Shown: positions 38,934-64,000 of the stretch, one piece after another | Layout of the letters: each line of letters starts with the position of its first letter | Numbering within the stretch: the stretch's first letter is position 1 | Assembly: GCF_025340265.1 (NCBI RefSeq) | Contig: NZ_CP022708.1 | Location: forward strand, 767,501 to 831,500 | From: Novosphingobium sp. 9 | GTDB taxonomy: Bacteria; Pseudomonadota; Alphaproteobacteria; Sphingomonadales; Sphingomonadaceae | Direction: 5' to 3' | Length of the DNA stretch: 64,000 nt | Translations under genes and position numbers: made by a program | The notes under the pieces: model-generated | Told to the model about the DNA's origin: nothing | The model's input: only the letters and a program-made list of their open reading frames with translations | Database searches by the model: none

Positions 38934-40115
38934 TCACCCGATCCGGTCGATCGCCGCCTGCGGCTGGGTGAACCAGCGCGGCCCGTCCCCGGTCATGTAG
39001 AAGTGATCTTCCAGACGCACCCCGAAGCGGTCGGGGACGACGATCATCGGCTCGTTCGAGAAGCACATGCCGGTGTCGAGCGGCGTCCGGTCTCCGCGCA
39101 CCAGATAGGCGGGCTCGTGGATCGACAGCCCGATCCCATGACCGGTACGGTGCGGCAGGCCCGGCAGGCGGTAGTCCGGCCCCAGCCCTGCCCGCTCCAG
39201 CACCCGGCGCGCGGCGGCATCGACTGCCTCGCACGGCTCCCCCGGACGCGCGGCCTCGAAAGCGGCGGCCTGCGCCTCCTTTTCGAGGTTCCAGATCGAG
39301 CGCACCTCGTCCGAGACGTTGCCGAAAGCATATGTGCGGGTGATATCGGAATGATAGCCCTCGACCGTGCAACCGGTGTCGACCAGCACGAGATCGTCCT
39401 CGGCCAGATACTGCTCGCCGGGGAGGCCATGCGGAAACGCCGTGCCGCGCCCGAACTGGACGATGCAGAAGCTGTAACCCGACGCCCCCATCGCCTTGTG
39501 CGCATCGTTGATGAAGGCGCGCACTTCGGCGGTCGAAATGCCGGGGCGCAGGATTGCGGCAGTGCGGCGGTGGACTTCCAGCGTCATGTTCTTGGCCTGC
39601 TGCATCAGCGCCAGTTCCTGCGCGGACTTGCGCATGCGGCACCCGTCGATCACCGGGGCGCCATCGACCAGCGTCGCGTGGGGGGCGGCCCTGCGCAAGC
39701 GCTCCGAGCCCTGAAAGTGCAGCGCGGGATCGAGCGCGATGACGGAACCTGCAAACGCATCGGCCACCAGTACGTAAGGGTCCTCATCCTCCTGCCAGAG
39801 CCGCATATCCATGGGGAAGGCGAGTTCCGCTTCCAGCGAGCCGCGCTCGAAATGCGGGCACACCAGAATCGGATCGCCCGATACCGGCAGCAGCATCGCC
39901 ACAAGACGCTCGCTTGCGCCCCATGGAATGCCGGTGAAGTAGCGCAGCGAAGCGCCTGCATTCACCAGCAGGGCATCGGCGCCCAATGTTTCAAGGCGCG
40001 CCTGCGCCTGTGCGATTCGATCTTTCCGCTCCGTCACGGAGATCGCCGACGCGCGATCTGCCGGGGGCGAGAGGGTGACGAGTTCGCGGTCAGCGCTCGA
40101 TCCGCCGATGCTCAT
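38934..40115 (-). CDS. M24-family metallopeptidase (Xaa-Pro aminopeptidase/dipeptidase type)
   Basis: This 393-residue protein without a signal peptide has a creatinase-like N-terminal domain and a pita-bread catalytic domain. All five metal ligands are present: Asp246 and Asp257 in 'LVDTGCTVEGYHSDITRTY', His326 in 'HRTGHGIGLSIHEP', Glu355 in 'SNEPMI' and Glu369 in 'RLEDHF'. Enzymes of this group remove residues next to proline, as X-Pro dipeptidases or aminopeptidases. It is divergent from a TBDR; a palindrome of the GTATAC type (40165-40180) lies 50 bases before its start. That, and the S9 peptidases of the same region, suggest work on proline-rich peptides in the cytoplasm after import. 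Confidence 0.92.
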   Translation of the reverse strand: MSIGGSSADRELVTLSPPADRASAISVTERKDRIAQAQARLETLGADALLVNAGASLRYFTGIPWGASERLVAMLLPVSGDPILVCPHFERGSLEAELAFPMDMRLWQEDEDPYVLVADAFAGSVIALDPALHFQGSERLRRAAPHATLVDGAPVIDGCRMRKSAQELALMQQAKNMTLEVHRRTAAILRPGISTAEVRAFINDAHKAMGASGYSFCIVQFGRGTAFPHGLPGEQYLAEDDLVLVDTGCTVEGYHSDITRTYAFGNVSDEVRSIWNLEKEAQAAAFEAARPGEPCEAVDAAARRVLERAGLGPDYRLPGLPHRTGHGIGLSIHEPAYLVRGDRTPLDTGMCFSNEPMIVVPDRFGVRLEDHFYMTGDGPRWFTQPQAAIDRIG

Positions 40116-40164
40116 TAGAAATCTCCAGAAAAACAGGTCTTAGCGGCAAACCGCAATCACCGCA

Positions 40165-40180
40165 GTTTCGTATACGATTC
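40165..40180. promoter_or_regulatory. GTATAC-centred operator, M24 peptidase side
   Basis: GTTTCGTATACGATTC contains the perfect 10-bp palindrome TCGTATACGA, 50 bases upstream of the minus-strand peptidase start. It matches the core of the sites at 40233, 45804, 51171 and 56685. Confidence 0.6.
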
Positions 40181-40232
40181 ACACCGTTGCGGGAAGTGCG
40201 TCGTTCACAGCGGCGAAACTGCAACACTCAAG

Positions 40233-40248
40233 ATACCGTATACGGTAT
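40233..40248. promoter_or_regulatory. Perfect GTATAC-centred operator, TBDR side
   Basis: ATACCGTATACGGTAT is a perfect 16-bp palindrome 62 bases before the receptor start at 40310. It is the best-formed member of the repeated site family and is consistent with binding by a dimeric GntR-type regulator that is not encoded in this window. Confidence 0.75.
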
Positions 40249-40309
40249 TTGACATACCATGTCATTTATGTTGCATAGGCCAGATCACAGGGACGGGAAT
40301 GGAAATGCA

Positions 40310-43231
40310 ATGCGACACCTTCATGCAATAATGCGACTTTCGGCGGCCGCAGGCGCCATGGCTGTTGGCCTTGCATGTGGCGCTGCCCATGCGCAGACGA
40401 CAGACAGTGCCGGGACGGACACCGCCAGCGATCCCGCGTCCAGCGCGATCGTCGTGACCGGTACGCGCATCCAGCGTCCCGAACAGACCAGCAACAGCCC
40501 GCTCTCGACCGTCAGCAGCAACGAGATCAGCCTGCAGGGTGCGACGAGCGTGGAAAGCGTGCTGAACCGCATGCCGCAGTTCACCGCCGATGCGAACGAG
40601 AACGTCTCGAACGGGTCGGACGGCACCTCGAACGTCAACTTGCGCCACCTGGGCTCAAGCCGCGTGCTCCTGCTGATCGACGGGCGCCGCATGCTGCCGC
40701 AACAGGCCGTGGACACCAACTTCGTGCCGTCCTCGCTGATCGACCGGATCGATGTCGTCACCGGCGGCGCCTCGGCGGTCTATGGTTCGGACGCGGTATC
40801 GGGCGTGGTCAACTTCGTGCTGAAGAAAGACCTCGACGGCTTCCGCATGGATTTCCAGAACAGCCTGTTCCAGCACAATAACAACAACAGCTATCTGCGC
40901 GGTATCGTGGCGGGACAGGGCTATGCGACGGCGCCCTCCTCGGTGGTCGATGGCGGCAAGCTCGACGTCAACGCCTCGTTCGGCAAGAACTTTGCGGACG
41001 GTCGCGGCAACATCACCGTCTATGGCGGCTATCGCCAGACCAACCCGATCACGCAGGACAGCCGCGACATTTCGGCCTGTGCGCTCGATCCCACCGACGA
41101 TGCGGGCACGGGCCTGCTGTGCGGCGGCTCCAGCAACAACCAGTGGGGCCTGTTCACCCCACTGAGCGGCCCGAACCAGGGCAAGACCTACAACAACACC
41201 AAGGACGGCGCGCATACCTGGGCGCCCTACGATTCCAGCTACCTCTACAACTATTCGCCTTCGAACTACTTCCAGCGTTCGGACAAGCGGTACACCGCAG
41301 GCGCCATGGGCCACTTCGAGATCAGCCCGGCAGCGGAAGTCTATGGCGACTTCATGTACATGCGCGACCACACCTTCTCGCAGGTGGCGCCTTCGGCCTT
41401 CTTCCAGGGCACGACCTTCTCGATCAACTGCGACAACCCCTATCTCGGGGCCGGACAGGCGCAGACGCTGTGCGGATCGGCTGCGGGCACATCGCAGACC
41501 GAGGACGCCTTCATCGGCTACCGCCTGACCACGCCGCGCCGCGATGACCTGCGCCACGAGGACTATCGCTATTCCGCTGGCGTTCGCGGCGAGATCGCGA
41601 CCGGCATCAGGTACGACGTCAACTTCCTGCGCTCGGAAGTCTATTACAACGAGACCTACCTCAACAACGTCGACAATGTGAAGGCGCAGCGCGCCATCGA
41701 CGTCGTGAATGTGAACGGCGTGCCGACCTGCCGGTCGGTGGTCGACGGCACCGACCCGAGCTGCCTGCCGCTCGACATCTTCTCGTCCTCGTCGATCGAC
41801 CCGACCAACCTGCAATACATCTTCTCGCCCAGTTCGACGAAGAGCCGCAACACGCAGACCGTATGGTCGGGCAACCTCAGCGCGGACCTGACCAGCTACG
41901 GTATCCAGTCGCCGTTCGCGAACCGCGGCATCGGCCTGTCGCTCGGCCTCGAACATCGCCGCGAGACGCTGGTGTTCACCGCCGACGAGATCGCGCAGCA
42001 GGCCGGTACGACCAATTCCGACGGCGTGATCGCGGTCAACGAGGCTTACGGCGAAATCGAAGTGCCGCTGGTTTCGGACCGGCCGTTCATCCACGACCTG
42101 ACGCTGAACGGCGGCCTGCGCTATTCGTCGTATGACAACTCGCAGCAGTCCACCGGTTTCAAATCGCACTTCGAGGCCTGGACCTTCAAGGGCGAGCTGT
42201 CCTACGCGCCGACGCCGGACCTGCGCCTGCGTGCCAGCTTCAACCGCGCGATCCGCGCGCCCAACATCTCGGAACTGTTCGGCGCCGTCAGCCTTGGCAA
42301 CGTGACGGGCGTGGACCCTTGCGCGGGCACCAACCCGACGCTTCCGCTGGAGGCATGCGAGCGTACCGGCGTCACCGCGTCGCAATATGGTTCGATCATC
42401 CAGTGCCCGGCGGGCCTGTGTGTCGAGCAGTACGGCGGCAACCGCGACGTGAAGCCCGAGAAAGCCAACACCTACACCATCGGTCTGGTGCTGACCCCGC
42501 GCGCCCTGCGCCGCTTCAGCCTCTCGGTCGATTACTACCATATCAAGGTCAACGACTACATCTCGACCATCGACCCCTCGCTCACCATCAACCAGTGCGC
42601 GACCACCGGCGATCCGTACTATTGCGGGCTGTTCCACCGCGATCCGCGCAGCGGCGTGATCTTCGGCGATCAGGGCTATGTCGTGGCCACCACGCTCAAC
42701 ACCGGCTACCTGATGACCTCGGGCATCGACGTGACCAGCAACTACAACCTGCCGCTGGGCAAGCTGGGCTCGCTCGACTTCGATCTGGTTGGCTCGTACC
42801 TGACTTCGCTGACCACCGAGCCGCTTCCGGGCCTGGGCACGTATAGCTGCAAGGGGCTTTACGGCTATACCTGCGGCGAACCTTCGCCCAAGTGGCGCCA
42901 CCAGTTGCGCACCACGCTCAACTTCGCAGGGCCGAACAAGGCCTCGCTCTCGCTGGCATGGCGCTACTTCGGCTCCGTCAAGCTCTCGGACACCGGGGCT
43001 GCGAATGCCTACGACAACAAGATCAAGGCCTACAACTACTTCGATCTGGCCGGTACGATCACCTTCGACAACAAGCTGACCCTGCGTGCGGGCGTCAACA
43101 ACCTGTTCGACAAGGACCCGCCCGCGGTCGTCGAAGGCGTGCTGAGCAGCTTCGGCAACGGCAACACCTACCCCGGTGTCTACGACGCGCTTGGTCGTTC
43201 GATCTTCATCGGCGCCTCGGTCCAGTTCTGA
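40310..43231 (+). CDS. TonB-dependent receptor (RpfN/oligosaccharide-receptor-like)
   Basis: This 973-residue outer-membrane receptor has a signal peptide ending at 'AAHAQ', a TonB box region 'SSAIVVTGTRIQRPEQ', and a plug with 'SVESVLNRMPQF', 'NLRHLGSSRVLLLIDGRRM' and 'VDVVTGGASAVYGSDAVSGVVNFVLKK'-type sequence. A barrel follows, ending 'RSIFIGASVQF'. The start at 40310 has GGAA upstream and a proper signal peptide; an in-frame ATG at 40259 lies only ten bases after the operator and lacks a ribosome site. It is followed by a terminator and a GH2 gene. It probably imports glycan or glycopeptide fragments. Unlike the other two full-length receptors here it belongs to the 'VTGTRI' branch with a long extracellular loop set containing paired cysteines. 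Confidence 0.93.
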   Translation: MRHLHAIMRLSAAAGAMAVGLACGAAHAQTTDSAGTDTASDPASSAIVVTGTRIQRPEQTSNSPLSTVSSNEISLQGATSVESVLNRMPQFTADANENVSNGSDGTSNVNLRHLGSSRVLLLIDGRRMLPQQAVDTNFVPSSLIDRIDVVTGGASAVYGSDAVSGVVNFVLKKDLDGFRMDFQNSLFQHNNNNSYLRGIVAGQGYATAPSSVVDGGKLDVNASFGKNFADGRGNITVYGGYRQTNPITQDSRDISACALDPTDDAGTGLLCGGSSNNQWGLFTPLSGPNQGKTYNNTKDGAHTWAPYDSSYLYNYSPSNYFQRSDKRYTAGAMGHFEISPAAEVYGDFMYMRDHTFSQVAPSAFFQGTTFSINCDNPYLGAGQAQTLCGSAAGTSQTEDAFIGYRLTTPRRDDLRHEDYRYSAGVRGEIATGIRYDVNFLRSEVYYNETYLNNVDNVKAQRAIDVVNVNGVPTCRSVVDGTDPSCLPLDIFSSSSIDPTNLQYIFSPSSTKSRNTQTVWSGNLSADLTSYGIQSPFANRGIGLSLGLEHRRETLVFTADEIAQQAGTTNSDGVIAVNEAYGEIEVPLVSDRPFIHDLTLNGGLRYSSYDNSQQSTGFKSHFEAWTFKGELSYAPTPDLRLRASFNRAIRAPNISELFGAVSLGNVTGVDPCAGTNPTLPLEACERTGVTASQYGSIIQCPAGLCVEQYGGNRDVKPEKANTYTIGLVLTPRALRRFSLSVDYYHIKVNDYISTIDPSLTINQCATTGDPYYCGLFHRDPRSGVIFGDQGYVVATTLNTGYLMTSGIDVTSNYNLPLGKLGSLDFDLVGSYLTSLTTEPLPGLGTYSCKGLYGYTCGEPSPKWRHQLRTTLNFAGPNKASLSLAWRYFGSVKLSDTGAANAYDNKIKAYNYFDLAGTITFDNKLTLRAGVNNLFDKDPPAVVEGVLSSFGNGNTYPGVYDALGRSIFIGASVQF

Positions 43232-43242
43232 ACCCTGCCCTG

Positions 43243-43286: not shown

Positions 43287-43318
43287 GATTCAACAAATCG
43301 CCTGGAGAGGCCCTGCCG

Positions 43319-45775
43319 ATGACCGTCGTTTCCCGTCGTACTGTGCTGGGCTCCACCGGGGCTGCCGGATTGGCCGCCCTCGCCCCCGGCGCCATGGCCC
43401 GCGCTGCTGCAGTGGGCAAACCTGACACCGGACCACGCGAAGTCACAGCGCTCGGCGACTGGCGCTTTCACCTCGGCCACGCTTCCGACCCGGCGAAGGA
43501 CTTCAGCTTCGGTGCCAGCCATGACACCTACGGCAAGTCCGGCGATGTCGGCACGCCCGTCGCCAATGCGGATTTCGATGCGAGCGGCTGGCAAGCCGTG
43601 CGCCTGCCGCACGACTGGGCTGTCGACCTGCCTTTCGAGCAGTTCGGTCCTGCGGGCTCTGACGCAGACAAGACCGGCGCCTATCAGGGCTTCAAGCCGC
43701 TGGGCCGTCTGTGGCCCGCAACCAGCGTGGGCTGGTATCGCTGCGAGATCCCGATTGCCGCCGGCGATGCCGGTCGCCGCATCGCGCTGGAATTCGATGG
43801 CGTCTCGCGGAACTGCATCGTCATTCTCAACGGCTTTATCGTCGGCACCAACGAAAGCGCCTATGCGCCGTTCCGCCTCGACGTGACCGACTTCGCCCGC
43901 CCCGGCGAGACCAACGTGCTGGTCATCCGCTGCGACGTGAGCCTTGGCGAGGCATGGTCCTACGAAGGCGCGGGGCTCTACCGCGCAGTGCGGCTGGTGA
44001 AGACCGCGCCTGCCCATGTCCGCCAGTGGGGCGCCCGCGTGCGCAGCGACATTCAGGGCACCGCAGCGCGGCTCACCCTCGATACCGAGATCGACAACCA
44101 GGGCGAGGCGCGCACTATCCGCCTGCGCTCACGCGCGCTGGCGCCTGATGGAACAGTCGCCGCAAAGGTTCTGTCCGAACCTGTCGAGCTCGCCGCATGG
44201 AGCAGCCGGACCGTCAGCCAGACCGCCGCGATCGCCGAGGCGAAGCTGTGGGATCTCGACACCCCGCATCTCTACACGCTGGTGTCGGACATTCTCGATG
44301 GCGATGCGCTGCTCGACCGCGACACCTGCCGCTTCGGCCTGCGCACGATCCACTTCGATGCCGACAAGGGCTTCTTCCTCAACGGACGCTCCGTCAAGAT
44401 CAAGGGCACCTGCAACCATCAGGACCATGCGGGCGTCGGCTTTGCCGTGCCGGACAGCCTGCACCGCTGGCGGCTGGAAAAGCTGCGTGAGATGGGCGCC
44501 AACGCCTATCGCTCCACGCACCACTCGCCATCGCCCGTGATCCTCGACGCCTGCGATGAGATGGGCATTCTGGTGATGGACGAAACGCGCCAGATGTCGA
44601 GCAATGCCGAGGGCATGAGCCAGCTGGAACGCGTCATCCGGCAGGGACGCAATCACCCTTGCGTGTTCATCTGGAGCATCGGCAACGAGGAGATCCATCG
44701 CGGCACCGCCACCGGCCTGCGCATTGCCACCACGATGAAGCGCCGCGTCTACGAACTCGACGGCACCCGCCCCGTTACCGAGGCGTTCAACGGCAAGTTC
44801 GGCGAAGGCGCCTCCCCCGTGCTCGACGTGATGGGCTGCAACTACTTCCTCGACGCCATCGATCCTTATCACGCCACCCATCCCGACAAGCCGATGATCG
44901 GCACCGAAACCGGCAGCACGGTGATGGCACGCGGCGTCTATGCGCGCGACGACAAGGCCGGCCTCGTTCCAGCCTACGACAGCGAATACCCGCGCTGGGC
45001 CACCACCGCCGAGCACTGGTGGACGTTCTACAATGCACGCCCGTTTCTGGCGGGCGGGTTCGTGTGGACGGGCTTCGACTATCGCGGCGAGCCCACGCCT
45101 TATGAGCGCTGGCCCGAGAACAGCAGCAACTTCGGCCAGATGGACTTATGCGGCTTCCCCAAGGACAACTACTGGTATTACCGCGCCTGGTGGAGCGGCA
45201 AGCCGGTGCTGCACCTGTTCCCGCACTGGAACTGGAGCGGGCGCGAAGGGCAGAATGTCGCCGTCTGGGTTCACGCCAATTGCGAGGAAGTCGAACTGCT
45301 GTGCAACGGGCGCAGCCTCGGTCGCAAGCGCGTGGAGCATGGCCGCCACCTCGAATGGCAGGTCGCCTATGTGCCCGGCCATATCGAGGCGCGCGGCTTC
45401 AGCGGCGGCAGGCAGGTCATGGTCCAGCGTCGCGAGACCACCGGCGCCCCGGCCCGCGTCGCCCTCACCTGCGACCGCAAGGCGCTGGCGGCGGGCGACG
45501 TCGGCCTCGTGCGCGCGGCGATCCTCGATGCCAAGGGACGCGAAGTGCCCGATGCCAGCAACCGCGTGCATTTCACGCTGGAGGGCGACCTCGCGCTGCT
45601 GGGCGTCGGCAACGGCGACCCGCGCTGTCTGGAGCCCGACCATGCCGATATGCGCAGTGCCTTCAACGGCCTGTGCGCGGCCGTGGTGCAGGCAGGGCCG
45701 GGAAGCGGTCCGCTGCGTATTCGAGCCACGGCTGAGGGACTGACAGGCGGCGCACTGGCTTTTGTACGGGACTGA
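43319..45775 (+). CDS. GH2-family glycosidase, probable beta-galactosidase, Tat signal
   Basis: This 818-residue enzyme has a twin-arginine-like leader ('VSRRTVLGSTGAAG', cut near residue 30). It has the GH2 sugar-binding, Ig-like and TIM-barrel domains, with predicted acid/base Glu457 in 'IWSIGNEEIH' and nucleophile Glu530 in 'IGTETGSTV'. A C-terminal DUF4982-like/Ig region follows ('AWVSGKPVLHLFPHWNW'-type sequence near 620-640). It lacks the Bgal_small domain and so differs from the LacZ-type GH2 at 9619-12768. Members of this layout include beta-galactosidases acting on plant galactans and arabinogalactan. The ATG at 43319 is 33 bases after a terminator, with GGAGAGG upstream. It sits between a TBDR and an S9 peptidase in the proposed glycoprotein regulon. 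Confidence 0.92.
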   Translation: MTVVSRRTVLGSTGAAGLAALAPGAMARAAAVGKPDTGPREVTALGDWRFHLGHASDPAKDFSFGASHDTYGKSGDVGTPVANADFDASGWQAVRLPHDWAVDLPFEQFGPAGSDADKTGAYQGFKPLGRLWPATSVGWYRCEIPIAAGDAGRRIALEFDGVSRNCIVILNGFIVGTNESAYAPFRLDVTDFARPGETNVLVIRCDVSLGEAWSYEGAGLYRAVRLVKTAPAHVRQWGARVRSDIQGTAARLTLDTEIDNQGEARTIRLRSRALAPDGTVAAKVLSEPVELAAWSSRTVSQTAAIAEAKLWDLDTPHLYTLVSDILDGDALLDRDTCRFGLRTIHFDADKGFFLNGRSVKIKGTCNHQDHAGVGFAVPDSLHRWRLEKLREMGANAYRSTHHSPSPVILDACDEMGILVMDETRQMSSNAEGMSQLERVIRQGRNHPCVFIWSIGNEEIHRGTATGLRIATTMKRRVYELDGTRPVTEAFNGKFGEGASPVLDVMGCNYFLDAIDPYHATHPDKPMIGTETGSTVMARGVYARDDKAGLVPAYDSEYPRWATTAEHWWTFYNARPFLAGGFVWTGFDYRGEPTPYERWPENSSNFGQMDLCGFPKDNYWYYRAWWSGKPVLHLFPHWNWSGREGQNVAVWVHANCEEVELLCNGRSLGRKRVEHGRHLEWQVAYVPGHIEARGFSGGRQVMVQRRETTGAPARVALTCDRKALAAGDVGLVRAAILDAKGREVPDASNRVHFTLEGDLALLGVGNGDPRCLEPDHADMRSAFNGLCAAVVQAGPGSGPLRIRATAEGLTGGALAFVRD

Positions 45776-45780
45776 GTACT

Positions 45781-45795: not shown

Positions 45796-45803
45796 GCCCG
45801 GTC

Positions 45804-45819
45804 ATTTGGTATACGGTAT
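45804..45819. promoter_or_regulatory. GTATAC-centred operator upstream of S9 peptidase
   Basis: ATTTGGTATACGGTAT shares its right half (GTATACGGTAT) exactly with the perfect operator at 40233-40248. It lies 34 bases before the S9 start. It gives this gene its own control point behind GH2. Confidence 0.65.
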
Positions 45820-45853
45820 TTTTCATCTTTCCCGTAGCCATCCGATCGGACCC

Positions 45854-51109: not shown

Positions 51110-51170
51110 GCCCATCCCCGTTTCCCCGAAGGGTCCTTGCCGCACAAAGGACACATACCGGAAAAGAAAA

Positions 51171-51186
51171 GGATCGTATACTGGAT
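51171..51186. promoter_or_regulatory. GTATAC-centred operator upstream of TBDR
   Basis: GGATCGTATACTGGAT shares its first eleven bases (GGATCGTATAC) with the site at 56685-56700. It lies 62 bases before the minus-strand receptor start, the same distance as the site of the 40310 receptor. Confidence 0.6.
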
Positions 51187-51233
51187 TTTGTATGAGTTAT
51201 TCCACGAGCCGGCGGATGTGGCATTATTGATAC

Positions 51234-56463: not shown

Positions 56464-56519
56464 GTCCGATCCCCTTTCGGAGCAGCATTAGAGCAGCCGG
56501 AACCTCGCTGGTCAAATAT

Positions 56520-56534
56520 ATTATACAGTATAAT
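56520..56534. promoter_or_regulatory. ATTATACAGTATAAT palindrome upstream of S9 operon
   Basis: A 15-bp inverted repeat, perfect except for the unpaired central base, lies 57 bases before the minus-strand S9 start. It resembles the GTATAC sites but has one more base between the TATAC arms and AT-rich flanks, so it may be a variant site or an operator for another protein. Confidence 0.5.
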
Positions 56535-56684
56535 GTACGACAAGATATTGAGCGCCGTGCGCAAATGCGGCACCCGAGCCACGCATCCAGCATTCCTGCG
56601 GATGGGCCGCGATGCAACCGCAGGTTCTCGTTCGCCGCGAAAAAACACCGGCCCACAGCGTTGACGCCCGAGAGATTTACGCTA

Positions 56685-56700
56685 GGATCGTATACCGTAT
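56685..56700. promoter_or_regulatory. GTATAC-centred operator upstream of GH127 operon
   Basis: GGATCGTATACCGTAT combines the left half of the 51171 site with a TACCGTAT right half. It lies 18 bases before the ATG of the GH127-like gene, close to its ribosome site, where a bound regulator would block transcription or early elongation. Confidence 0.65.
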
Positions 56701-56718
56701 CTATTTCTGGAGACGGTC

Positions 56719-59118
56719 ATGCTTTCCACCAGTCGCAGGCAGCTGCTCGGCGGAGCCGCCACGATGGCGCTGCTTATTCATGCGGGCGATGCCTTCGCAC
56801 TTGAGGCTCTTTCGCGCCTGCCCGCCAAGGCCGAGCCGCTTCCGCTCGATGCCGTGCGCTTGCGCCCCTCGCCCTTCGCGACGGCGGTGGAAACCAACCT
56901 CAAATACTTGCTCTCGCTGGAGCCGGACCGCCTGCTGCACAACTACCGTACCAATGCCGGGCTGGAAGCCAAGGGCAAGGTCTATGGCGGTTGGGAAAGC
57001 GACACCATCGCCGGGCATTCGCTGGGTCACTATTTGTCTGCGCTGGCACTGACGCACGCGCAGACGGGCGACGCGGAGTGCCGCACCCGCGTCGCCTACA
57101 TCATCTCCGAACTGGCCGAGTGCCAGAAGGCCGAAGGCGATGGCTACGTCGCGGGCTTCACGCGCAAGCGCAAGGACGGCACCGTCGTCGACGGCAAGGA
57201 GATCTTCCCGGAGATCATGGCCGGAGACATCCGTTCGGGCGGGTTCGATCTCAACGGTTGCTGGGTGCCCTATTACAACTGGCACAAGCTGTTCAACGGC
57301 CTGTTCGACGCGCAGACCTACTGCGGGTTCGACACCGTGATGCCGATCGCCATCGGTCTGGCGGGCTATATCGACAAGGTCTTCGCCGCGCTGAACGACG
57401 AGCAGGTCGAAAAGATGCTCTCGTGCGAATACGGCGGCCTGAACGAGAGCATTGCGGAGCTTTACGCGCGCACCAACGATGCCCGCTGGCTGAAGCTGGC
57501 GAACCGCATCTACGATCACCGCGTGCTCGATCCGTTGAAAGCGCAGGAAGACAAGCTGGCGAACTTCCACGCCAACACGCAGATCCCCAAGATCATCGGC
57601 CTTGCGCGCCTCAACGAGGTTTCCGGCACGCCCGCCGATGCCGTCGCCGCGCGGTTCTTCTGGGAGACGGTGACAGGGCATCACAGCTATGTCATCGGCG
57701 GCAATGCCGATCGCGAATACTTCAGCGAACCCGACACGATCAGCCACCACATCACCGAACAGACCTGCGAGCACTGCAACAGCTACAACATGCTGAAGCT
57801 GACGCGGCACCTGTTCCAGTGGCGCCCGGAAGCCTCGCTGTTCGACTATTACGAGCGCACGCACCTCAACCATATCCTGGCGCAGCAGCACCCGGACTGG
57901 GGCGGCTTCACCTACATGACCCCGCTGATGACAGGCGCCCCGCGCGGCTATTCGCAACCCGGAGAGGAAGCGTTCTGGTGCTGCGTCGGCTCAGGCATGG
58001 AAAGCCACGCCAAGCACGGCGATTCCATCTTCTGGCAGGGCACCGCGCCCACAGGTCCGATGCTGATGGTCAATCTCTACATCCCCGCGCAGGCGCACTG
58101 GGCACAGCGCGGCGCCGATGTCGTGCTCGACACCCGCTATCCGTTCGAGGGGCGCAGCACGATCAGGCTGGTCAACCTCGCCAAACCAGGACGTTTCGCA
58201 ATTGCCCTGCGCGTGCCCGCCTATGCCAACGGCAAGGCTGCGGTCAGCGTCAACGGCACGATCTATCCGGTCACGGTGACGACAGGCTATGCGATCCTCG
58301 ACCGCGTGTGGAAGCAGGGCGACGAGATCGCCATCGACCTGCCGCTCGACCTGCGCCTCGAAGCGACGCCGGGCGATGACCGCACGGTCGCCGTCCTGCG
58401 CGGCCCGCTGGTGCTGGCAGGCGATCTGGGCGACGTCGGGCCGGACGCGGCACCCTACAGCGGCGTCGAGCCCGCGCTGGTCGGGACCGATCCGGTCGCC
58501 GGGTTCAATGCCACCTCGCCGCAGTGGGCAGTCTACGACACGCAAGGCGTGATCCGTCCCGGCAACTTGCGCTTCGTGCCGTTCTACAGCCAGTACGACC
58601 GGCGCAGCGCGGTCTACTTCAAGCGCTTCACCGAAGCCGAATGGAAGACCGAGGAAGCAGGATTCCTCGCCGAACAGGCGCGTCTTCGCGATGTTGCCGC
58701 CCGTTCGGTCGACGTCATGCATCTGGGCGAAATGCAGGCCGAGCGCGATCACAATCTGACCTCGGATATCTCTTATCCCGTCACCTATCGCGGTCGTAAC
58801 GGGCGCGATGCGCGCAGCGGCGGCTTCTTCGAATTCACGATGAAGACCCGCGAGGCCCCGCTGGTGCTCGAAGCCACCTATTGGGGCGAGGAGCGCAACC
58901 GCACGTTCGACATTCTGCTCGATGGCGTGAAGCTCGCCACCGAAACGCTGAAGGGCGACAAGGGCGGCACCTTCTTCACCGTCGACTATCCGATCCCGGC
59001 GGCGATGGTGAAGGGCAAGTCCTCGGTGAAGGTGAAGTTCGTGCCGCATGACGGCCAGAGCGCCGGGCCGGTGTTCGGCGTGGTGCTGTTCACGGCCAAG
59101 CCCGGACAGGCGGTATGA
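56719..59118 (+). CDS. GH127/GH146-type beta-L-arabinofuranosidase, Tat signal
   Basis: This 799-residue protein has a twin-arginine-like leader ('TSRRQLLGGAATM'). The (alpha/alpha)6 barrel of the former DUF1680 family is marked by 'VYGGWESDTIAGHSLGHYLSA' and 'GYVAGF'. The zinc-thiolate catalytic site of GH127 is complete: Glu351 and Cys353 in 'EQTCEHCNSYNML', and Cys421 and Cys422 in 'AFWCCVGSGMESH', with Cys421 the likely nucleophile. A beta-sandwich C-terminal part follows. Characterised members remove beta-L-arabinofuranose, including the arabino-oligosaccharides on hydroxyproline of extensins; pectin side chains are another target. TGGAGACGG precedes the ATG. It heads an operon with Ldh_2, DUF885 and GH43 genes, joined by four-base overlaps. 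Confidence 0.92.
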   Translation: MLSTSRRQLLGGAATMALLIHAGDAFALEALSRLPAKAEPLPLDAVRLRPSPFATAVETNLKYLLSLEPDRLLHNYRTNAGLEAKGKVYGGWESDTIAGHSLGHYLSALALTHAQTGDAECRTRVAYIISELAECQKAEGDGYVAGFTRKRKDGTVVDGKEIFPEIMAGDIRSGGFDLNGCWVPYYNWHKLFNGLFDAQTYCGFDTVMPIAIGLAGYIDKVFAALNDEQVEKMLSCEYGGLNESIAELYARTNDARWLKLANRIYDHRVLDPLKAQEDKLANFHANTQIPKIIGLARLNEVSGTPADAVAARFFWETVTGHHSYVIGGNADREYFSEPDTISHHITEQTCEHCNSYNMLKLTRHLFQWRPEASLFDYYERTHLNHILAQQHPDWGGFTYMTPLMTGAPRGYSQPGEEAFWCCVGSGMESHAKHGDSIFWQGTAPTGPMLMVNLYIPAQAHWAQRGADVVLDTRYPFEGRSTIRLVNLAKPGRFAIALRVPAYANGKAAVSVNGTIYPVTVTTGYAILDRVWKQGDEIAIDLPLDLRLEATPGDDRTVAVLRGPLVLAGDLGDVGPDAAPYSGVEPALVGTDPVAGFNATSPQWAVYDTQGVIRPGNLRFVPFYSQYDRRSAVYFKRFTEAEWKTEEAGFLAEQARLRDVAARSVDVMHLGEMQAERDHNLTSDISYPVTYRGRNGRDARSGGFFEFTMKTREAPLVLEATYWGEERNRTFDILLDGVKLATETLKGDKGGTFFTVDYPIPAAMVKGKSSVKVKFVPHDGQSAGPVFGVVLFTAKPGQAV

Positions 59119-60152
59119 CAGAGGTCATGACGACGCCTGCCACCGTGCGGATGTCGCTCGACGAGGTGCGGGCGCTGGCGCTGCGGGTGCTCTTAGCCGT
59201 CGGTCTGGCGCCCGACCACGCCGCCGCTGTCGCCCAGACGATGGTCGCGGGCGAGCGAGACGGCTGCACCTCGCACGGGCTCTACCGCCTGCTGGTGGCG
59301 GCGCGCAGCGTCGCGATGGGCATCGCCGTGCCGGATGCCGTGCCGCTGGTCGAGGAACCGGCGACTGCACTGGTGCGCGTGGACGGACGGGGCGGCTTTG
59401 CCCAACTGCCGTTCGAGACGGGCCGCACCCTGCTGGTCCACAAGGCGAAGCGCTGCGGCATCGCCGCGATGGCGCTGACCAACGTGGTCCACTTCGCCGC
59501 GCTGTGGCCCGAAGTCGAAGCGCTGGCCGAGGAAGGCCTCGCCGTGCTGGCGATGACCCCCAGCCATGCCTGGGTCGCGCCCGAAGGCGGCACCAAGCCG
59601 GTGTTCGGCACCAATCCCATCGCCTTTGGCTGGCCGCGCCCCGGCAAGGCGCCGTTCGTCTTCGACCTTGCCACCAGCGCCATCGCGCGCGGCGATATCG
59701 AACTGCACCGCCGCGCGGGCAAGCCGGTGCCCGATCACTGGGGCTATGACGCGGACGGCAACGTCACCACCGATGCCGCCGCCGTTCTGGAAGGCGCCAT
59801 GCGCACGTTCGGCGGGCACAAGGGCTCGGCACTTTCGGCCATGGTCGAACTGCTGGGCGGCCCGCTGATCGGCGACATGACCAGCCTGGAATCGCTCGCG
59901 CTCGACAACGGGCGCAAGGGCTCTCCCATCGGCGGCGAACTGATCATCGCCATCGATCCGCAAGGCTTCATGGGCGAACTGATGGCAGACCGTTTCGCGG
60001 CGGCAGAAGCCATGTTCGCCGCCATCGAGGGACAGGGCGCCCGCCTCCCCTCCTCGCGCCGCCACGCAGCGCGGGCGCGCAGCCTGGCCGAAGGGGTGGA
60101 TATCCCGCAGGCCCTTCTCGACGACATTCAAGCCCTTCTGGAGCAGGCATGA
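59115..60152 (+). CDS. Ldh_2-family NAD(P)-dependent reductase (Pyr2C/Pip2C reductase-like)
   Basis: This 345-residue cytoplasmic oxidoreductase belongs to the malate/L-lactate/ureidoglycolate dehydrogenase fold. The catalytic His54 is in 'ERDGCTSHGLYRLL', and 'THAWVAPEGG'-type and 'FGTNPIAFGWPR' segments form the nucleotide site; 'GGHKGSALSAMVELL' and 'GELIIAIDP' follow. The 'DGCTSHGLYR' form rather than the 'GxDSHG' of malate dehydrogenases recalls delta-1-pyrroline/piperideine-2-carboxylate reductases (DpkA type), which make L-proline from intermediates of trans-3-hydroxyproline or D-proline breakdown. That would fit the peptidase-rich context. A sugar-acid reductase for arabinose-derived acids is the alternative. 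The ATG overlaps the GH127 stop (ATGA), and its stop overlaps the DUF885 start. Confidence 0.85.
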   Translation: MTEVMTTPATVRMSLDEVRALALRVLLAVGLAPDHAAAVAQTMVAGERDGCTSHGLYRLLVAARSVAMGIAVPDAVPLVEEPATALVRVDGRGGFAQLPFETGRTLLVHKAKRCGIAAMALTNVVHFAALWPEVEALAEEGLAVLAMTPSHAWVAPEGGTKPVFGTNPIAFGWPRPGKAPFVFDLATSAIARGDIELHRRAGKPVPDHWGYDADGNVTTDAAAVLEGAMRTFGGHKGSALSAMVELLGGPLIGDMTSLESLALDNGRKGSPIGGELIIAIDPQGFMGELMADRFAAAEAMFAAIEGQGARLPSSRRHAARARSLAEGVDIPQALLDDIQALLEQA

Positions 60153-61942
60153 CCTTTACACCCGCCTCGACTTTCGCTCTCGCCATGGCTCTTGCCGCGA
60201 CACTCTCGATCGGAGCCCCCGCCATCGCCGCCCCTGCCCACAAGACGACCGCCGCGAAGGCCCAGACCGCCGATCAGCGCTTCGAAGCGCTCTACACATC
60301 GGAATATGCCTGGCGCCAGACGATGAGCGCGCCCGATGAGGACACGCCCGGCGCCAAGCTCCAGCTGCCCGACGTGGGGCCAAAGGCACAGGCCGAGAAG
60401 CTCGCCCGCTGGACCGATACCGAGCGCCAGCTCGCCGCGATCGATCCCAAGACGCTCAGCCGCGCGAACCAGCTGAACTACCTCGTGTACAAGCAGCAGA
60501 TCGGCGTATTGCTGGAAGCGCAGAAGTATCGCGAGTTCGAAAAGCCGCTGACCTCGGACACCAGCTTCTGGAGCGACCTCAGCTACACCGTCAACGGCAG
60601 CTTCAAGACCGAGCAGCAGTATACCGACTATCTGGAGATGATGCGCGAGATCCCGCGCTATTTCGACCAGAACATCGCCAACATGCGTGCAGGCCTGAAG
60701 CGCGGGTTCACCATGCCGCAGATCACCCTGCAGGGCCGCGATGTGGGCGTGCAGCAGGTGATCGACGCCAGCGATCCGCAGAAGAACATGTTCTTCGCGC
60801 CCTTCGCCAAGATGCCCGCGACGATTCCGGCGGAAAAGCAGGCCGCGCTGCGCGCAGAAGCCGCGAAGATCATCGCCGAGCAGGTGATCCCCGCCCACGT
60901 CAGGCTGCGTGACTTCCTGCGCAACGAGTATATCCCCGGTGCCCGCAAGACGCTGGCCGCCTACGACATGCCCGACGGCAAGGCCTACTACCGCTCGAAG
61001 ATCCGCGAGTTCGTGACGCTCGACATGAGCCCGGAGCAGATCCACCAGATCGGCCTCGACGAAGTTGCCAAGATCCACGCGCAGATGCTCGATGTGATGA
61101 AGGAGACCGGGTTCAAGGGCGATCTTCCCGCCTTCCTGCACTTCCTGCGCACCGATCCGCAGTTCTATCCCAAGACGCCGCAGGACCTGCTGAACCGCGC
61201 CGCGTGGATCGCCAAGAGCTTCGACGGCGTGGCCAGCCAGTACTTCGGGCGCCTGCCGCGCAGCCGCTTCGCGATCAAGCCGGTGCCGGACGATCTTGCG
61301 CCGTTCTACACCGGCGGGCGCGGTGGTCCCGGCATCTATCTGGTCAACACCTACAACCTGCCCTCGCGCCCCTATTACCAGATGGTTGCACTGACCCTGC
61401 ACGAGAGCGCGCCGGGCCATGCCTTCCAGATGCCGCTGGCGGCGGAGAACACCGACCTGCCGCAGTTCCGGCGCGACCTGTACATCTCGGCCTATGGCGA
61501 AGGCTGGGCGCTCTATTGCGAGCACCTCGGCATCGAGATGGGCATGTACAAGGACCCCTACGACCGGTTCGGCATGCTCTCGTACCAGATGTGGCGCGCG
61601 GCGCGTCTCGTCGTCGATACCGGCATCCATACGCAGGGCTGGACGCGCGAGCAGGCGCAGCAGTACCTCACCGAGAACACCGCGCTTTCGAGCCACGAGA
61701 TCGAGACCGAGGTGGACCGCTACATCGCCTGGCCGGGGCAGGCGCTCAGCTACTACATGGGCCAGCTGGCCTTCGAGCATGAGCGCGCACGCGCCGAAAA
61801 AGCGCTGGGCGAGAAGTTCAATATCCGCGCCTGGCACGATGCGATGCTCCAGCTCGGCTCGGTCCCGCTCGAAGTCCTGACCGCCCGCACCGACGAGTTC
61901 ATCGCCGATGGGGGCAAGGGCCCCTACCCGGACGAGGAATGA
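60149..61942 (+). CDS. Exported DUF885 (gluzincin-like) metallopeptidase
   Basis: This 597-residue protein has a signal peptide ending at 'AIAAP' and a long helical domain of the DUF885 family. The zinc-binding motif is 'TLHESAPGHAFQ' (His418, Glu419, His424), and 'SAYGEGWALYCEHLGIEMG' about 60 residues later provides the third, glutamate ligand. These proteins are related in fold to M3/M32 carboxypeptidases and are predicted to be metallopeptidases; a precise substrate is not known to me. It overlaps both neighbours by four bases (ATGA at each end), so it is made together with a beta-L-arabinofuranosidase and a GH43, which suggests trimming of peptides from glycoproteins. Confidence 0.9.
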   Translation: MTFTPASTFALAMALAATLSIGAPAIAAPAHKTTAAKAQTADQRFEALYTSEYAWRQTMSAPDEDTPGAKLQLPDVGPKAQAEKLARWTDTERQLAAIDPKTLSRANQLNYLVYKQQIGVLLEAQKYREFEKPLTSDTSFWSDLSYTVNGSFKTEQQYTDYLEMMREIPRYFDQNIANMRAGLKRGFTMPQITLQGRDVGVQQVIDASDPQKNMFFAPFAKMPATIPAEKQAALRAEAAKIIAEQVIPAHVRLRDFLRNEYIPGARKTLAAYDMPDGKAYYRSKIREFVTLDMSPEQIHQIGLDEVAKIHAQMLDVMKETGFKGDLPAFLHFLRTDPQFYPKTPQDLLNRAAWIAKSFDGVASQYFGRLPRSRFAIKPVPDDLAPFYTGGRGGPGIYLVNTYNLPSRPYYQMVALTLHESAPGHAFQMPLAAENTDLPQFRRDLYISAYGEGWALYCEHLGIEMGMYKDPYDRFGMLSYQMWRAARLVVDTGIHTQGWTREQAQQYLTENTALSSHEIETEVDRYIAWPGQALSYYMGQLAFEHERARAEKALGEKFNIRAWHDAMLQLGSVPLEVLTARTDEFIADGGKGPYPDEE

Positions 61943-63561
61943 GCGTGATCGCCCGCCGGAACACCACCAGTAGGCCTCTCCTCGCGCTCGCCACACTGTT
62001 GGCAGGCGCGGGGCTGACAGGCACGGGGTTGGCGCCCCTCCACGCGGATACGCCATCAGGCATTCCGATCCACGCCCCCGGCAACCCGATCATGGCCGAT
62101 GGTGACTATTACTCGGCCGATCCGGCACCGGTAGTGGTCGATGACAAGCTGTGGATTCTCGCCGGGCGCGATCAGGCCCCGGCGGGCGTCAACGACTTCA
62201 TCATGAACGAGTGGCAACTGCTCGCCACCAGCGATCCGGCGAGCGGCGACTGGGTGCACTATCCGCGCATCGCCACCCCGCACGACGTGTTCAAGTGGGC
62301 CGCGCCAGACCGTGCCTATGCCGGACAGATCATCAAGGGCACGAACGGAAAGCTCTATCTCTACGCCCCGGTGATCGAGGCGAATTCCGACGCGAAGGAC
62401 CAGTTCGCGATCGGCGTCGCGGTGGCGGACAGCCCGACCGGCCCGTGGAAGGATGCCCATCCTTCCGGTCCGATCATCTCGCAGCGCGTGCCGGTGGCGA
62501 ATGCAATCCAGAACATCGATCCGACCCCGTTCGTCGATGACGATGGCCGGGTCTATATCTACTGGGGCACCTTCGGGCAGCTTCGCGGGATGGAGCTGGA
62601 CAAGGACATGGTGACGCCCAAGGGACCGGAAGTCGAAGTTCCGACCGGTCATTCCGGGCTCACCGGTTTCTTCGAGGCGCCGTGGCTGATGAAGCGGCAT
62701 GGCACGTATTACATGCTCTATGCCGCGAACAATGCAGGTCCAACCTCGCCCTGCACGCCTGCGGTCTACCATGCCTGCATCGCCTACGGCACCGCGCCTT
62801 CACCGATGGGACCGTGGACCTATCGCGGCATCGCTCTGGGGCCGGTTTCCTCGACCACCTCCCATCCCGGCGCGGTCGAGTTCAAGGGTAAGTGGTATCT
62901 CGTCTACCACACCGCCGATGCGAAGGGCGGCGATCACTTCCGCCGCTCGGTCGCGATCGACGAGATGCACTTCGACGACAGCGTGACGCCTGCCCGGATC
63001 GAGACCGTGATCCCGACACGCCGCCCCGGCCCGCCGCCGAGCCCTACGCGCAATATCGCGGGCGCAGCGGTCGCCACCGCCTCGAACAGTCCGGTCCCGT
63101 TGCAGTACTGGATCAAGGCGCTGAACGACGGGATCGTGCGTGACAACCCTCTGCCGCCGGATATGTGGGGCAGCTGGTCCCCGCACAACCCAAAGACGCA
63201 GTGGCTCGAATATCGCTGGGCCAAGCCGGTGACGGTCAACGGCGCCCGGATGCGTTTCTTCGCCGATCATCCCGCAGGCTCGGGCGAAGGCGTGGCCCCG
63301 CCTGCCGCATGGCAGTTGTTCTATTGGCAGAAGGGCGCATGGAAACCGATCCTGACGCCTAGGCAATATCCGACCGGCGTGGATGGGTTCGATGGCGTGG
63401 CCTTCCCGGCTGTCACCACGCGCTGCCTGCGCGCAGTGCTCACGGCATCGGGCGATGGCAAGAGCAACGCTGCGTTCGGTGTGCAGGAATGGGAAGTGCT
63501 GAGCCCGAAAGCCGCTCTCCCGACACCTGCCCCCAAGGATATGCCCGCCGCCTGCGATTGA
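61939..63561 (+). CDS. Exported GH43 glycosidase with C-terminal sandwich domain
   Basis: This 540-residue enzyme has a signal peptide (first ~36 residues). The GH43 propeller has the predicted base Asp61 in 'YYSADPAPVV', pKa-modulating Asp194 in 'QNIDPTPFVDDDG' and acid Glu246 in 'GFFEAPWLM'. The last ~170 residues look like a non-catalytic beta-sandwich ('WLEYRWAKPVTVNGARMRFF', 'VQEWEVLS'). Arabinofuranosidase, xylosidase or exo-beta-1,3-galactanase activity all occur in GH43 and cannot be separated by eye. It is only distantly similar to the GH43 at 12765-14162. As the last gene of the GH127 operon it starts in an ATGA overlap with DUF885 and is followed by 21 bases to the convergent flavoenzyme gene. 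Confidence 0.9.
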   Translation: MSVIARRNTTSRPLLALATLLAGAGLTGTGLAPLHADTPSGIPIHAPGNPIMADGDYYSADPAPVVVDDKLWILAGRDQAPAGVNDFIMNEWQLLATSDPASGDWVHYPRIATPHDVFKWAAPDRAYAGQIIKGTNGKLYLYAPVIEANSDAKDQFAIGVAVADSPTGPWKDAHPSGPIISQRVPVANAIQNIDPTPFVDDDGRVYIYWGTFGQLRGMELDKDMVTPKGPEVEVPTGHSGLTGFFEAPWLMKRHGTYYMLYAANNAGPTSPCTPAVYHACIAYGTAPSPMGPWTYRGIALGPVSSTTSHPGAVEFKGKWYLVYHTADAKGGDHFRRSVAIDEMHFDDSVTPARIETVIPTRRPGPPPSPTRNIAGAAVATASNSPVPLQYWIKALNDGIVRDNPLPPDMWGSWSPHNPKTQWLEYRWAKPVTVNGARMRFFADHPAGSGEGVAPPAAWQLFYWQKGAWKPILTPRQYPTGVDGFDGVAFPAVTTRCLRAVLTASGDGKSNAAFGVQEWEVLSPKAALPTPAPKDMPAACD

Positions 63562-63582
63562 GCGGCGGGCACAGCGAAACCA

Positions 63583-64000
63583 TCAGAAGCGCGAAAGATC
63601 GAAGGGCGCGAGGGGAACGGCACTCTCGCGCCCGGTCGCCAGATCGGCGACGATCCGCGCCGTGATCGGTGCCAGCGTCAGACCCAGATGCTGGTGGCCG
63701 AAGGCATAGACAAGGTTGTCCGCCTTCGCTGACCGCCCGATGGCAGGCAGATAGTCCGGCAGCGTCGGACGCGCGCCCATCCAGCGCCGGAAAGGCCCGT
63801 TGATCGGAAGCCCCAAAGCCGCGACGTGCCGTTCGAGCCGCTCCCACTTGCGCGGGTCGGCAGGGGCGTTCTCTCTCGCGAACTCGACAAAGCTCGCCGC
63901 CTGCACGCAGGAACGATAGCGCGTGACGATCATGTTGCAGTCCTCGTAGACGACCGGTGGCATATCGGCGGGCCAGTTCTGCGCACTCGCGCGAACATGA
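63583..64000 (-). CDS. DadA/D-hydroxyproline-dehydrogenase-like FAD oxidoreductase, C-terminal part
   Basis: The frame stays open to the last base, so only the C-terminal ~139 residues are visible. 'NWPADMPPVVYEDCN', 'WMGARPTLPDYLPAIGRS' and 'YAFGHQHLGLTLAPITARIVADL' form the substrate-cap end and the final FAD-binding helix of DAO-type flavoproteins. The 'GARPTLPDYLPAIG' and 'GHQHLGLT' forms are those of D-amino-acid and D-hydroxyproline dehydrogenases of the DadA/LhpB group. Such enzymes oxidise cis-4-hydroxy-D-proline in bacterial hydroxyproline breakdown. It converges with the GH127 operon. D-amino-acid dehydrogenase acting on alanine is the main alternative. The ATG at 63963 is internal and not claimed as the start. 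Confidence 0.85.
   Translation of the reverse strand, partial: HVRASAQNWPADMPPVVYEDCNMIVTRYRSCVQAASFVEFARENAPADPRKWERLERHVAALGLPINGPFRRWMGARPTLPDYLPAIGRSAKADNLVYAFGHQHLGLTLAPITARIVADLATGRESAVPLAPFDLSRF

Follow-up and report, generated by a model that had tools for sequence, protein, structure and literature searches.

Can one regulon allow a bacterium to use both the glycan and the protein of hydroxyproline-rich glycoproteins (HRGPs), which constitute a large pool of protein in plant walls and root exudates? The question is raised by a 64,000-nucleotide stretch of the Novosphingobium sp. 9 genome, hereafter the window, which comprises bases 767501 to 831500 of contig 2 (NZ_CP022708.1; 1.385 Mb) in a genome of 4.39 Mb and two contigs. 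An original prediction, made from the letters of the window alone, read its last 25 kb as encoding glycan removal, proline-specific proteolysis, import, and hydroxyproline (Hyp) catabolism together. Gene content, a shared palindrome, and co-occurrence in relatives, all analyzed in silico, support that overall reading. We consider it likely that the block is one regulon for using HRGPs, with arabinogalactan proteins (AGPs) the favored and extensin a possible substrate, probably under the control of a GntR/FCD regulator encoded within it.

RESULTS

A predicted hydroxyproline catabolic core adjoins glycan and peptidase genes

Sequence to the right of the window was read for a further 40 kb, and coordinates there are kept on the window scale (contig 2 position = window position + 767500). 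Every gene named in the original prediction was matched by Pfam within 25 kb: two TonB-dependent receptors (TBDRs), two S9 peptidases, an M24 peptidase, a DUF885 metallopeptidase, a GH127/146-type enzyme, GH43, GH2, a DUF5695 protein, an Ldh_2 reductase, and a flavoenzyme (DAO; Table 1). It had also proposed that an epimerase, a deaminase, and a regulator be sought past position 64000. Within 4 kb of that edge lie a 4-hydroxyproline epimerase (HypE), a DHDPS-family gene, and a GntR/FCD regulator. HypE scores 540 bits against NF010578 (cutoff, 376), compared with 298 bits for proline racemase (cutoff, 556) and 265 bits for trans-3-hydroxyproline dehydratase (cutoff, 540), and contains C91 and C254, which we take to be the two catalytic cysteines of the motif.

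Overlaps and gaps predict eight transcription units: M24(-SDF), TBDR1-GH2, S9a, TBDR2, S9b-DUF5695, GH146-Ldh_2-DUF885-GH43, DAO, and DHDPS-HypE-GntR-APC(-GH27). Successive genes of the GH146 unit overlap by 4 bp each, as do DUF5695 and S9b, which starts its unit. GH2 has no operator of its own and likely belongs to the TBDR1 unit. The SDF symporter may be part of the M24 unit; homologues of 72 to 78% identity lie within ~1 kb of M24 in three epimerase-positive genomes (G095, G001, and G157) and were not seen near M24 at that identity in the other loci mapped. In Novosphingobium sp. 9, the M24/SDF and DAO parts of the Hyp core are separated by 23.5 kb, and the glycan-peptidase block sits between them.

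All eight units share a predicted operator

The gap between DAO and DHDPS carries a palindrome centered on GTATAC. This hexamer occurs seven times in the 103.5 kb of sequence, six times in block promoters and once inside DUF885. One of the six falls inside the mechanical open reading frame (ORF) of S9a, yet ahead of ATG 45854, which by sequence reading is probably the true start rather than TTG 45806. A symmetric matrix was trained solely on relatives' DAO/DHDPS promoter sites (32 in all) and applied to the same 103.5 kb. Its seven best hits (32.0 to 18.0 bits) are all in block promoters; with shifted overlaps of these left out, the next scores 9.0 bits. A site thus precedes all eight units, which supports the word "regulon" in the original prediction for glycan, peptidase, transport, and Hyp units. 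A looser pattern found 11 places in the whole genome, 5 of them in the block; the other 6 score 2.0 to 12.6 bits, and inspection by eye of ORF translations in ~3 kb around each revealed no block-type gene.

In the loci of relatives (889 kb), 68 sites of at least 17 bits were found, versus 1 in reversed sequences; the 68 include training sites, of which 30 of 32 reach 17 bits. Sites precede the training genes DHDPS (23/25 promoters) and DAO (19/23) and, among genes outside the training set, GH146 (14/16), TBDR1 (5/5, at least one of which, in locus L006, shares its promoter with a DHDPS training gene), DUF5695 (4/8), DUF885 (7/19), and Ldh_2 (3/13). The sites of GntR (3/21), HypE (2/28), and M24 (1/22) are likewise mostly divergent promoters common to training genes. 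None was found before APC (0/20), SDF (0/4), GH27 (0/4), GH43 (0/3), or GH2 (0/1); some of the genes without a site may sit inside units. All loci of both sets together contain 193 sites of at least 19 bits, and 171 of these precede mapped block genes, training genes included. Twenty distinct other sites reach this score, half of which (10) precede proteins with a TBDR2-like N terminus.

The exact 14-mer TAYCGTATACGRTA, shaped on sites of Novosphingobium sp. 9 as well as those of relatives, occurs in 8 of 199 family genomes, all epimerase-positive, compared with 3 of 199 for its reversed control. Eight of its 10 places are at most 4 kb from the epimerase, one is 10 kb off (G083), and one is 26 kb off, before the TBDR1 described here. 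A GntR/FCD regulator encoded with the Hyp genes and a conserved palindrome ahead of them are both features of a HypR-type regulon. FadR-type GntR regulators are cited with TKGT/ACMA sites (PMC6608401, available portions), and the GT..AC form of the core is in keeping with a GntR/FCD protein as its putative reader.

Glycan genes and the epimerase co-occur in relatives

The epimerase is present in 24 of the 199 family genomes and GH146 (E value of 1e-60 or better) in 19. Fifteen of the latter, spanning 13 genera, have a copy of at least 57% identity, and all 15 are epimerase-positive; one GH146 row (G057) has an internal stop. The close GH146 lies within ~11 kb of the epimerase in 13 genomes and on a separate contig in 2. 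The remaining four GH146 genomes have copies of at most 50% identity, and three of them are epimerase-negative. DUF5695 (E value, 1e-60) occurs in eight genomes, all epimerase-positive. Ldh_2 (E value, 1e-40) occurs in 14, of which the 12 with at least 62% identity are all epimerase-positive; the two distant copies are in G092 (51%, epimerase-negative) and G057 (41%).

The core order in relatives is M24-DAO-DHDPS-HypE-GntR-APC. In loci that hold both genes, M24 adjoins DAO in 41 of 48 and DHDPS adjoins HypE in 61 of 61, and GH146-Ldh_2-DUF885 is collinear in 56 of 60 loci; these adjacency counts pool two locus sets that overlap in part (L110/G032, L111/G175, L148/G168, and L151/G123), so that other counts from the two are not additive. 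Gene order varies across relatives, linkage is kept, and the linkage of block genes far exceeds chance.

The second set consists of GH146 loci from named genomes, the best 80 of 125 confirmed relatives, mapped with TBDR matches of at least 45% identity only. GH146 is at least 54% identical in 63 loci, among which 55 have an operator of at least 17 bits, 45 have HypE, DHDPS, or DAO in the flank, 50 have Ldh_2, 55 have DUF885, and 45 have DUF5695. Hyp genes are missing from the flank in 18 of the 63, and 14 of these 18 have an operator of at least 15 bits. The 17 distant GH146 loci, mostly from Xanthomonadaceae, have no operator and no Hyp genes; GH43 is present in 9 and GH27 in 7. On a tree of 79 GH146 proteins, which omits L184 and L186 (stop in the joined match), the operator label (at least 15 bits) requires 5 changes versus a mean of 17.9 when shuffled.

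Several individual loci are of interest. In L177 to L187 (mostly Xanthomonadaceae), GH43 and/or GH27 lies beside GH146 of 47 to 49% identity without operator or Hyp genes, and some of these loci have S9, gamma-glutamyltranspeptidase, or Ldh_2 of 57 to 58% identity. Two Parahaliea loci (L160 and L163; gammaproteobacteria, Halieaceae) have GH146 of 59 to 60% identity and no operator or Hyp genes in the flank, a possible transfer. A Sphingomonas parapaucimobilis plasmid is annotated with DUF5695, a GH127-annotated gene, Ldh, DUF885, DHDPS, GntR, and a permease together, and another plasmid of the species with the epimerase, a flavin adenine dinucleotide oxidoreductase, and a Xaa-Pro peptidase. 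Core variants also occur in Sphingomonas sp. R1, S. hankookensis, and Niveispirillum. Judged by strain names or sources, several of the carriers were isolated from leaves or the rhizosphere (six strains named Leaf, S. phyllosphaerae, S. endophytica, and Rheum and tomato rhizosphere), and others are from tap water or a lake.

Glycosidases and the DUF5695 protein

Structure 3wkw, listed as a non-reducing-end beta-L-arabinofuranosidase, is presumably the GH127 enzyme HypBA1. Against it the GH127/146-type protein scores 38 bits, compared with 176 for 8k7x and 470 for the GH146 structure 5opj (family labels in part from PMC10850190). The best match is not HypBA1, and the GH127 half of the earlier label was dropped in favor of GH146. 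The complete zinc-thiolate site claimed for the protein is present: the Zn-Cys3-Glu ligands E351, C353, C421, and C422 lie in segments that align with 5opj. Residues 362 to 534 of GH43 match NF041578 in part, and its C-terminal part resembles the C-terminal part of HypBA2. GH27 scores 341 bits against 6f4c (alpha-galactosidase-like) versus 104 for the beta-L-arabinopyranosidase 4nx0, which makes the latter activity less likely. A whole-genome scan for GH121 beta-L-arabinobiosidase with NF041578, a long multidomain model with a cutoff of 3,200 bits, gave no match above cutoff and only three partial matches (38, 29, and 21 bits). Two of the three share one gene on contig 1 (484.8 to 485.6 kb), identified by Pfam as an MGH1-like glycoside hydrolase and located beside a TBDR.

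The structure model of the DUF5695 protein, built from an alignment of the query and 31 of the 120 homologues listed, comprises an N-terminal beta-sandwich, a helical toroid, and a C-terminal beta-sandwich. Its fold resembles that of the PL27 L-Rha-alpha-1,4-GlcA lyase BACCELL_00875 (PDB 5nok/5no8), with which it shares a beta-sandwich plus (alpha/alpha) barrel; the two differ in that identity is 14% and DUF5695 has an additional C-terminal beta-sandwich. phmmer against PDB chains found no match for DUF5695 at an E value of 0.001, PL27 included. BACCELL_00875 is reported to free Rha from gum arabic (PMC8377490, available portions). DUF5695 homologues numbered 3,247 at an E value of 0.001 among 7,999 candidates scored, and in the open-licence PMC literature the family is named only in one unrelated paper, on fungal regulators by its title. 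Several relatives carry a second, distant homologue (24 to 25% identity) in the Hyp locus (L035 at 10.3 kb, L051 at 10.4 kb, L110, L111, L120, and L136).

Peptidases and the fate of hydroxyproline

S9a matches bacterial DPP4-type structures (2d5l, 175 bits; 5yp1, 160 bits) and has the serine motif GASAGG. M24 contains DTG, SDITR, GHG, NEP, and RLED, presumably the M24 metal ligands. The original prediction was right that the Ldh_2 protein resembles pyrroline-2-carboxylate reductases; it most resembles piperideine/pyrroline-2-carboxylate reductase and was rejected as a step of the 4-hydroxyproline route.

That route leads to alpha-ketoglutarate semialdehyde (alpha-KGSA). The genome has 23 PF00171 (aldehyde dehydrogenase) matches, some of which are pieces of one gene; NCBIfam scans covered 10 of the 23, none of which reached the cutoff of an alpha-KGSA or dioxovalerate dehydrogenase model. 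One PF00171 gene (contig 1, ~470.8 to 472.3 kb), far under every NCBIfam cutoff, lies beside AraD1 (NF040903, 513 bits; cutoff, 340) in an arabinose-type cluster with a dihydroxy-acid/arabinonate dehydratase-like partial ORF, a GFO/IDH/MocA oxidoreductase, an MFS carrier, an arabinofuranosidase (Alpha-L-AF_C), and GH43. AraD1-type enzymes belong to a route from L-arabinose to alpha-KGSA; this aldehyde could thus be where the two halves of a Hyp-arabinoside meet. In the same region (L191/L193; contig 1, 464 to 492 kb), the cluster is followed by the TBDR and the MGH1-like glycoside hydrolase, which has a weak partial HypBA2 likeness.

Flanking genes

To the right of the block (70649 to 81042; L002:7149-17542), no operator hit exceeded 8 bits, and the genes in that stretch were therefore excluded from the regulon; they encode a receptor-like protein that has a Gly/Pro-rich insert and no Pfam match, as well as a LacI regulator, a TBDR, and GH3. 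Immediately left of the block (33650 to 37410) are a serine-carboxypeptidase-like S10 gene (-) and a gamma-glutamyltranspeptidase gene (+), neither preceded by an operator above 8 bits; S10-like (28 to 43%) and gamma-glutamyltranspeptidase-like (29 to 30%) genes also lie near some epimerase loci of relatives. Farther left (9619 to 19452, -), a GH2 LacZ-type beta-galactosidase, GH92, and a TBDR are grouped, with no operator hit above 9.0 bits.

TABLE 1 Genes and predicted operators of the block, on the window scale (positions beyond 64000 lie in the extension)
Feature	Position	Strand	Basis or remark
SDF (sodium:dicarboxylate/amino-acid) symporter	37469-38872	-	PF00375, 361 bits
M24 with Creatinase_N, Xaa-Pro/Xaa-Hyp dipeptidase-like	38934-40115	-	Pfam; no signal peptide seen, read as cytoplasmic
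Predicted operator	40163-40182, center 40173	.	20.2 bits; 58 bp before M24
Predicted operator	40231-40250, center 40241	.	28.6 bits; 18 bp before TBDR1; contains the exact 14-mer
TBDR1	40259-43231	+	Pfam
GH2, beta-galactosidase-like	43319-45775	+	Pfam; PDB 7cwd, 436 bits; Tat-like signal by sequence reading
Predicted operator	45802-45821, center 45812	.	25.2 bits; 42 bp before S9a ATG 45854
S9a, DPP-IV-like peptidase	45854-48181 (mechanical ORF from TTG 45806)	+	Pfam; exported by sequence reading
TBDR2	48314-51154	-	Pfam
Predicted operator	51169-51188, center 51179	.	18.0 bits; 25 bp before TBDR2
DUF5695 protein	51302-54100	-	Pfam, 1269 bits; exported by sequence reading
S9b, DPP-IV-like peptidase 2	54097-56463	-	Pfam; GGSAGG motif; exported by sequence reading
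Predicted operator	56514-56533, center 56524	.	21.4 bits; 61 bp before S9b; core TTATAC, not GTATAC
Predicted operator	56683-56702, center 56693	.	19.7 bits; 26 bp before GH146
GH146-type beta-L-arabinofuranosidase candidate (GH127 superfamily)	56719-59118	+	Pfam; PDB matches; Tat-like signal by sequence reading
Ldh_2 reductase, delta1-piperideine-2-carboxylate reductase (DpkA)-like	59115-60152	+	PDB 1wtj, 249 bits vs 129 for next
DUF885 predicted metallopeptidase	60149-61942	+	Pfam, 534 bits; HESAPGH at 418; exported by sequence reading
GH43, arabinofuranosidase/xylosidase-like	61939-63561	+	Pfam; 3qee, 167 bits
DAO-family D-hydroxyproline-oxidase candidate	63583-64797 (crosses window edge at 64000)	-	PF01266
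Predicted operator, DAO/DHDPS promoter	center 64833	.	32.0 bits; own site outside training set
DHDPS-family pyrroline-4-hydroxy-2-carboxylate deaminase candidate	64867-65781	+	PF00701, 194 bits
4-Hydroxyproline epimerase (HypE), proline-racemase family	65792-66796	+	NF010578
GntR/FCD regulator	66793-67512	+	PF00392, PF07729
APC permease	67579-69003	+	Pfam
GH27	69105-70628	+	Pfam

DISCUSSION

From these data we infer enzyme specificities, an import route, a substrate, and a mode of repression that together would make up the following pathway. Glycopeptides would enter through TBDR1 and TBDR2. GH146 and GH43 would then take off beta- and alpha-L-arabinofuranose (Araf) in the periplasm, where GH2 and GH27 would take off galactose and DUF5695 would act on the glycan as a PL27-like lyase. 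Once bared, the Pro/Hyp-rich peptide would be cleaved to short peptides by DUF885 together with both DPP-IV-like peptidases. Hyp or dipeptides would be taken up by APC and perhaps SDF carriers, and cytoplasmic M24 would split Xaa-Pro/Hyp. The conversion of trans-4-hydroxy-L-proline to alpha-KGSA would be carried out by HypE, the DAO oxidase, and the DHDPS-family deaminase, and Ldh_2 probably turns pyrroline-2-carboxylate, made if D-proline is oxidized, back to L-proline. Further oxidation of the semialdehyde may fall to the aldehyde dehydrogenase of the distant L-arabinose-type cluster, in which case freed arabinose and freed Hyp would converge on a single intermediate. Repression would be lifted by an inducer, likely free Hyp. 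More tentatively, and at a little short of even probability, we suggest that Hyp serves as the chemical signature of a wall glycoprotein that throws one GntR switch for import, deglycosylation, Pro-specific proteolysis, and Hyp catabolism, that DUF5695 is a new polysaccharide lyase family acting on AGP glycans, and that the arabinose and Hyp halves converge on alpha-KGSA.

Several observations weigh against the proposal of a single HRGP regulon. Among 25 NCBIfam models listed for DAO, which adjoins the Hyp genes, none reaches its cutoff (D-amino-acid dehydrogenase, 120 of 383 bits); the DHDPS-family gene is below every NCBIfam cutoff; and no aldehyde dehydrogenase, for alpha-KGSA or otherwise, was found in the block. 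The operators ahead of M24, S9a, S9b, and TBDR2 are poorly backed in relatives (1/22, 0/3, 0/1 [16.7 bits], and 1/2), although TBDR2 gains from the 10 further sites before TBDR2-like N termini, and the exact 14-mer is missing from 16 of the 24 epimerase-positive genomes. Co-occurrence with the epimerase gives Fisher P values of 1e-16 for GH146, 1e-8 for DUF5695, and 5e-13 for Ldh_2, which overstate independence because the genomes are akin, and the identity cutoffs of 54, 57, and 62% were chosen after the data had been seen. Nine of the 24 epimerase-positive genomes have no close GH146, which indicates that the glycan part is an add-on, and both the operator and the Hyp genes are missing from the flank in 4 of the 63 loci with a close GH146. 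Several xylosidases score close behind 3qee for GH43. Finally, no exo-beta-1,3-galactanase or beta-glucuronidase, as expected for complete AGP breakdown, was recognized in the block.

The sugars taken alone would suit pectic arabinan: the nearest solved relatives of GH146 (5opj) and GH43 (3qee) are, we assume, the pectin/arabinan enzymes BT0349 and CjAbf43A. The block might accordingly hold two unrelated neighbors, a pectic arabinan/rhamnogalacturonan I cluster merely beside a Hyp catabolic cluster, just as Xanthomonadaceae have GH146 with GH43 and/or GH27 and no Hyp genes in the flank. Yet both halves have the same palindrome, here as in relatives, GH146 of at least 57% identity never occurs without the epimerase among the 199 genomes, and the linkage persists despite varying gene order; we rejected chance neighbors on the shared palindrome and the co-occurrence, and regard this explanation as highly improbable. 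General scavenging of Pro/Hyp peptides, e.g., from collagen-like or algal material, with the glycosidases incidental, is also very unlikely. In Alteromonadales, collagenases and proline dipeptidases are predicted members of HypR regulons (PMC5343134), Streptomyces HypR controls a collagenase gene (PMC6608401), and some carriers of the core are of aquatic origin, but Pfam recognized no collagenase in the block and several carriers are leaf or rhizosphere isolates. Moreover GH146, a family with reported activities on plant beta-L-Araf, is the add-on with the most consistent site among those sampled more than five times.

As to the substrate class within the single-regulon proposal, DUF5695, GH2, and GH146 favor AGP, and the Hyp-Araf activity found within GH146, together with GH43 and GH27, favors extensin. 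In the available portions of PMC10850190, the GH146 enzyme Bll4HypBA1 of Bifidobacterium longum is reported to act on Araf linked to Hyp of HRGP, and another member of the family on AGP. GH43 and an alpha-galactosidase-like GH27 would suit Ara4-Hyp and Ser-alpha-Gal, and no galactanase was recognized in the block. Against short Hyp-arabinosides of the extensin type as the main target stand the PL27-like fold of DUF5695, the beta-galactosidase-like GH2, and the lack of a match above cutoff in the genome for GH121, which would complete the known extensin route. We consider such a target somewhat unlikely and AGP the favored substrate.

The system is probably a plant-glycoprotein form of a HypR-like regulon and has partial precedents in print (PMC5343134, PMC6608401, and PMC6085000), which qualify the original claim that no described locus combines all of these functions; searches of open-licence PMC papers did not find GH146 or DUF5695 joined with Hyp catabolism. 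The comparisons below draw on the portions of each article that were available. HypR regulons of Proteobacteria (PMC5343134) and Streptomyces (PMC6608401) share a GntR regulator (FCD in Streptomyces) over epimerase, oxidase, and deaminase and extend upstream to proline peptidases, TBDR (predicted in Alteromonadales), and secreted collagenases. Their named protein source is collagen or peptides and glycosidases are not mentioned in those portions, whereas GH146, GH43, GH2, DUF5695, and TBDRs are added here; the site here is a GTATAC-centered palindrome, and that of Streptomyces HypR is CTNTGC(A/C)ATGTCAC (PMC6608401). The HypBA1/HypBA2/HypAA systems of B. longum and Xanthomonas euvesicatoria (PMC6085000 and PMC7263609) likewise pair a beta-L-arabinofuranosidase with GH43 for Hyp-linked arabinosides. 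They use GH127 and GH121, the latter without a match above cutoff here, and Hyp catabolism or a Hyp regulon is not named in the sections at hand; in Xanthomonas, a frameshifted prolyl oligopeptidase gene lies beside xehypAA (PMC6085000). A bifidobacterial AGP cluster also sets a GH146, Bll3HypBA1, beside AGP-degrading enzymes, but that enzyme is beta-1,3-Araf specific and anchored to the cell surface, and sugar removal alone is described (PMC10850190). Genome neighborhoods of 4-hydroxyproline epimerases show the same DAAO, DHDPS, and MLD2 (Ldh_2) families beside proline-racemase-family enzymes, with peptidase families named beside one Bacilli cluster and the term "glycosid" absent from the text available (PMC4113996).

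The searchable open-licence PMC literature, as far as its portions at hand extend, holds only sugar-removing systems or Hyp regulons of the collagen/peptide type. The regulon context gives DUF5695 and a subclade of GH146 a testable function, and the palindrome could serve as a ready reporter of when bacteria on a plant consume its wall proteins. A regulon under Hyp control and directed at glycan and protein alike would account for the way in which sphingomonads of leaves and roots gain carbon and nitrogen from such proteins.

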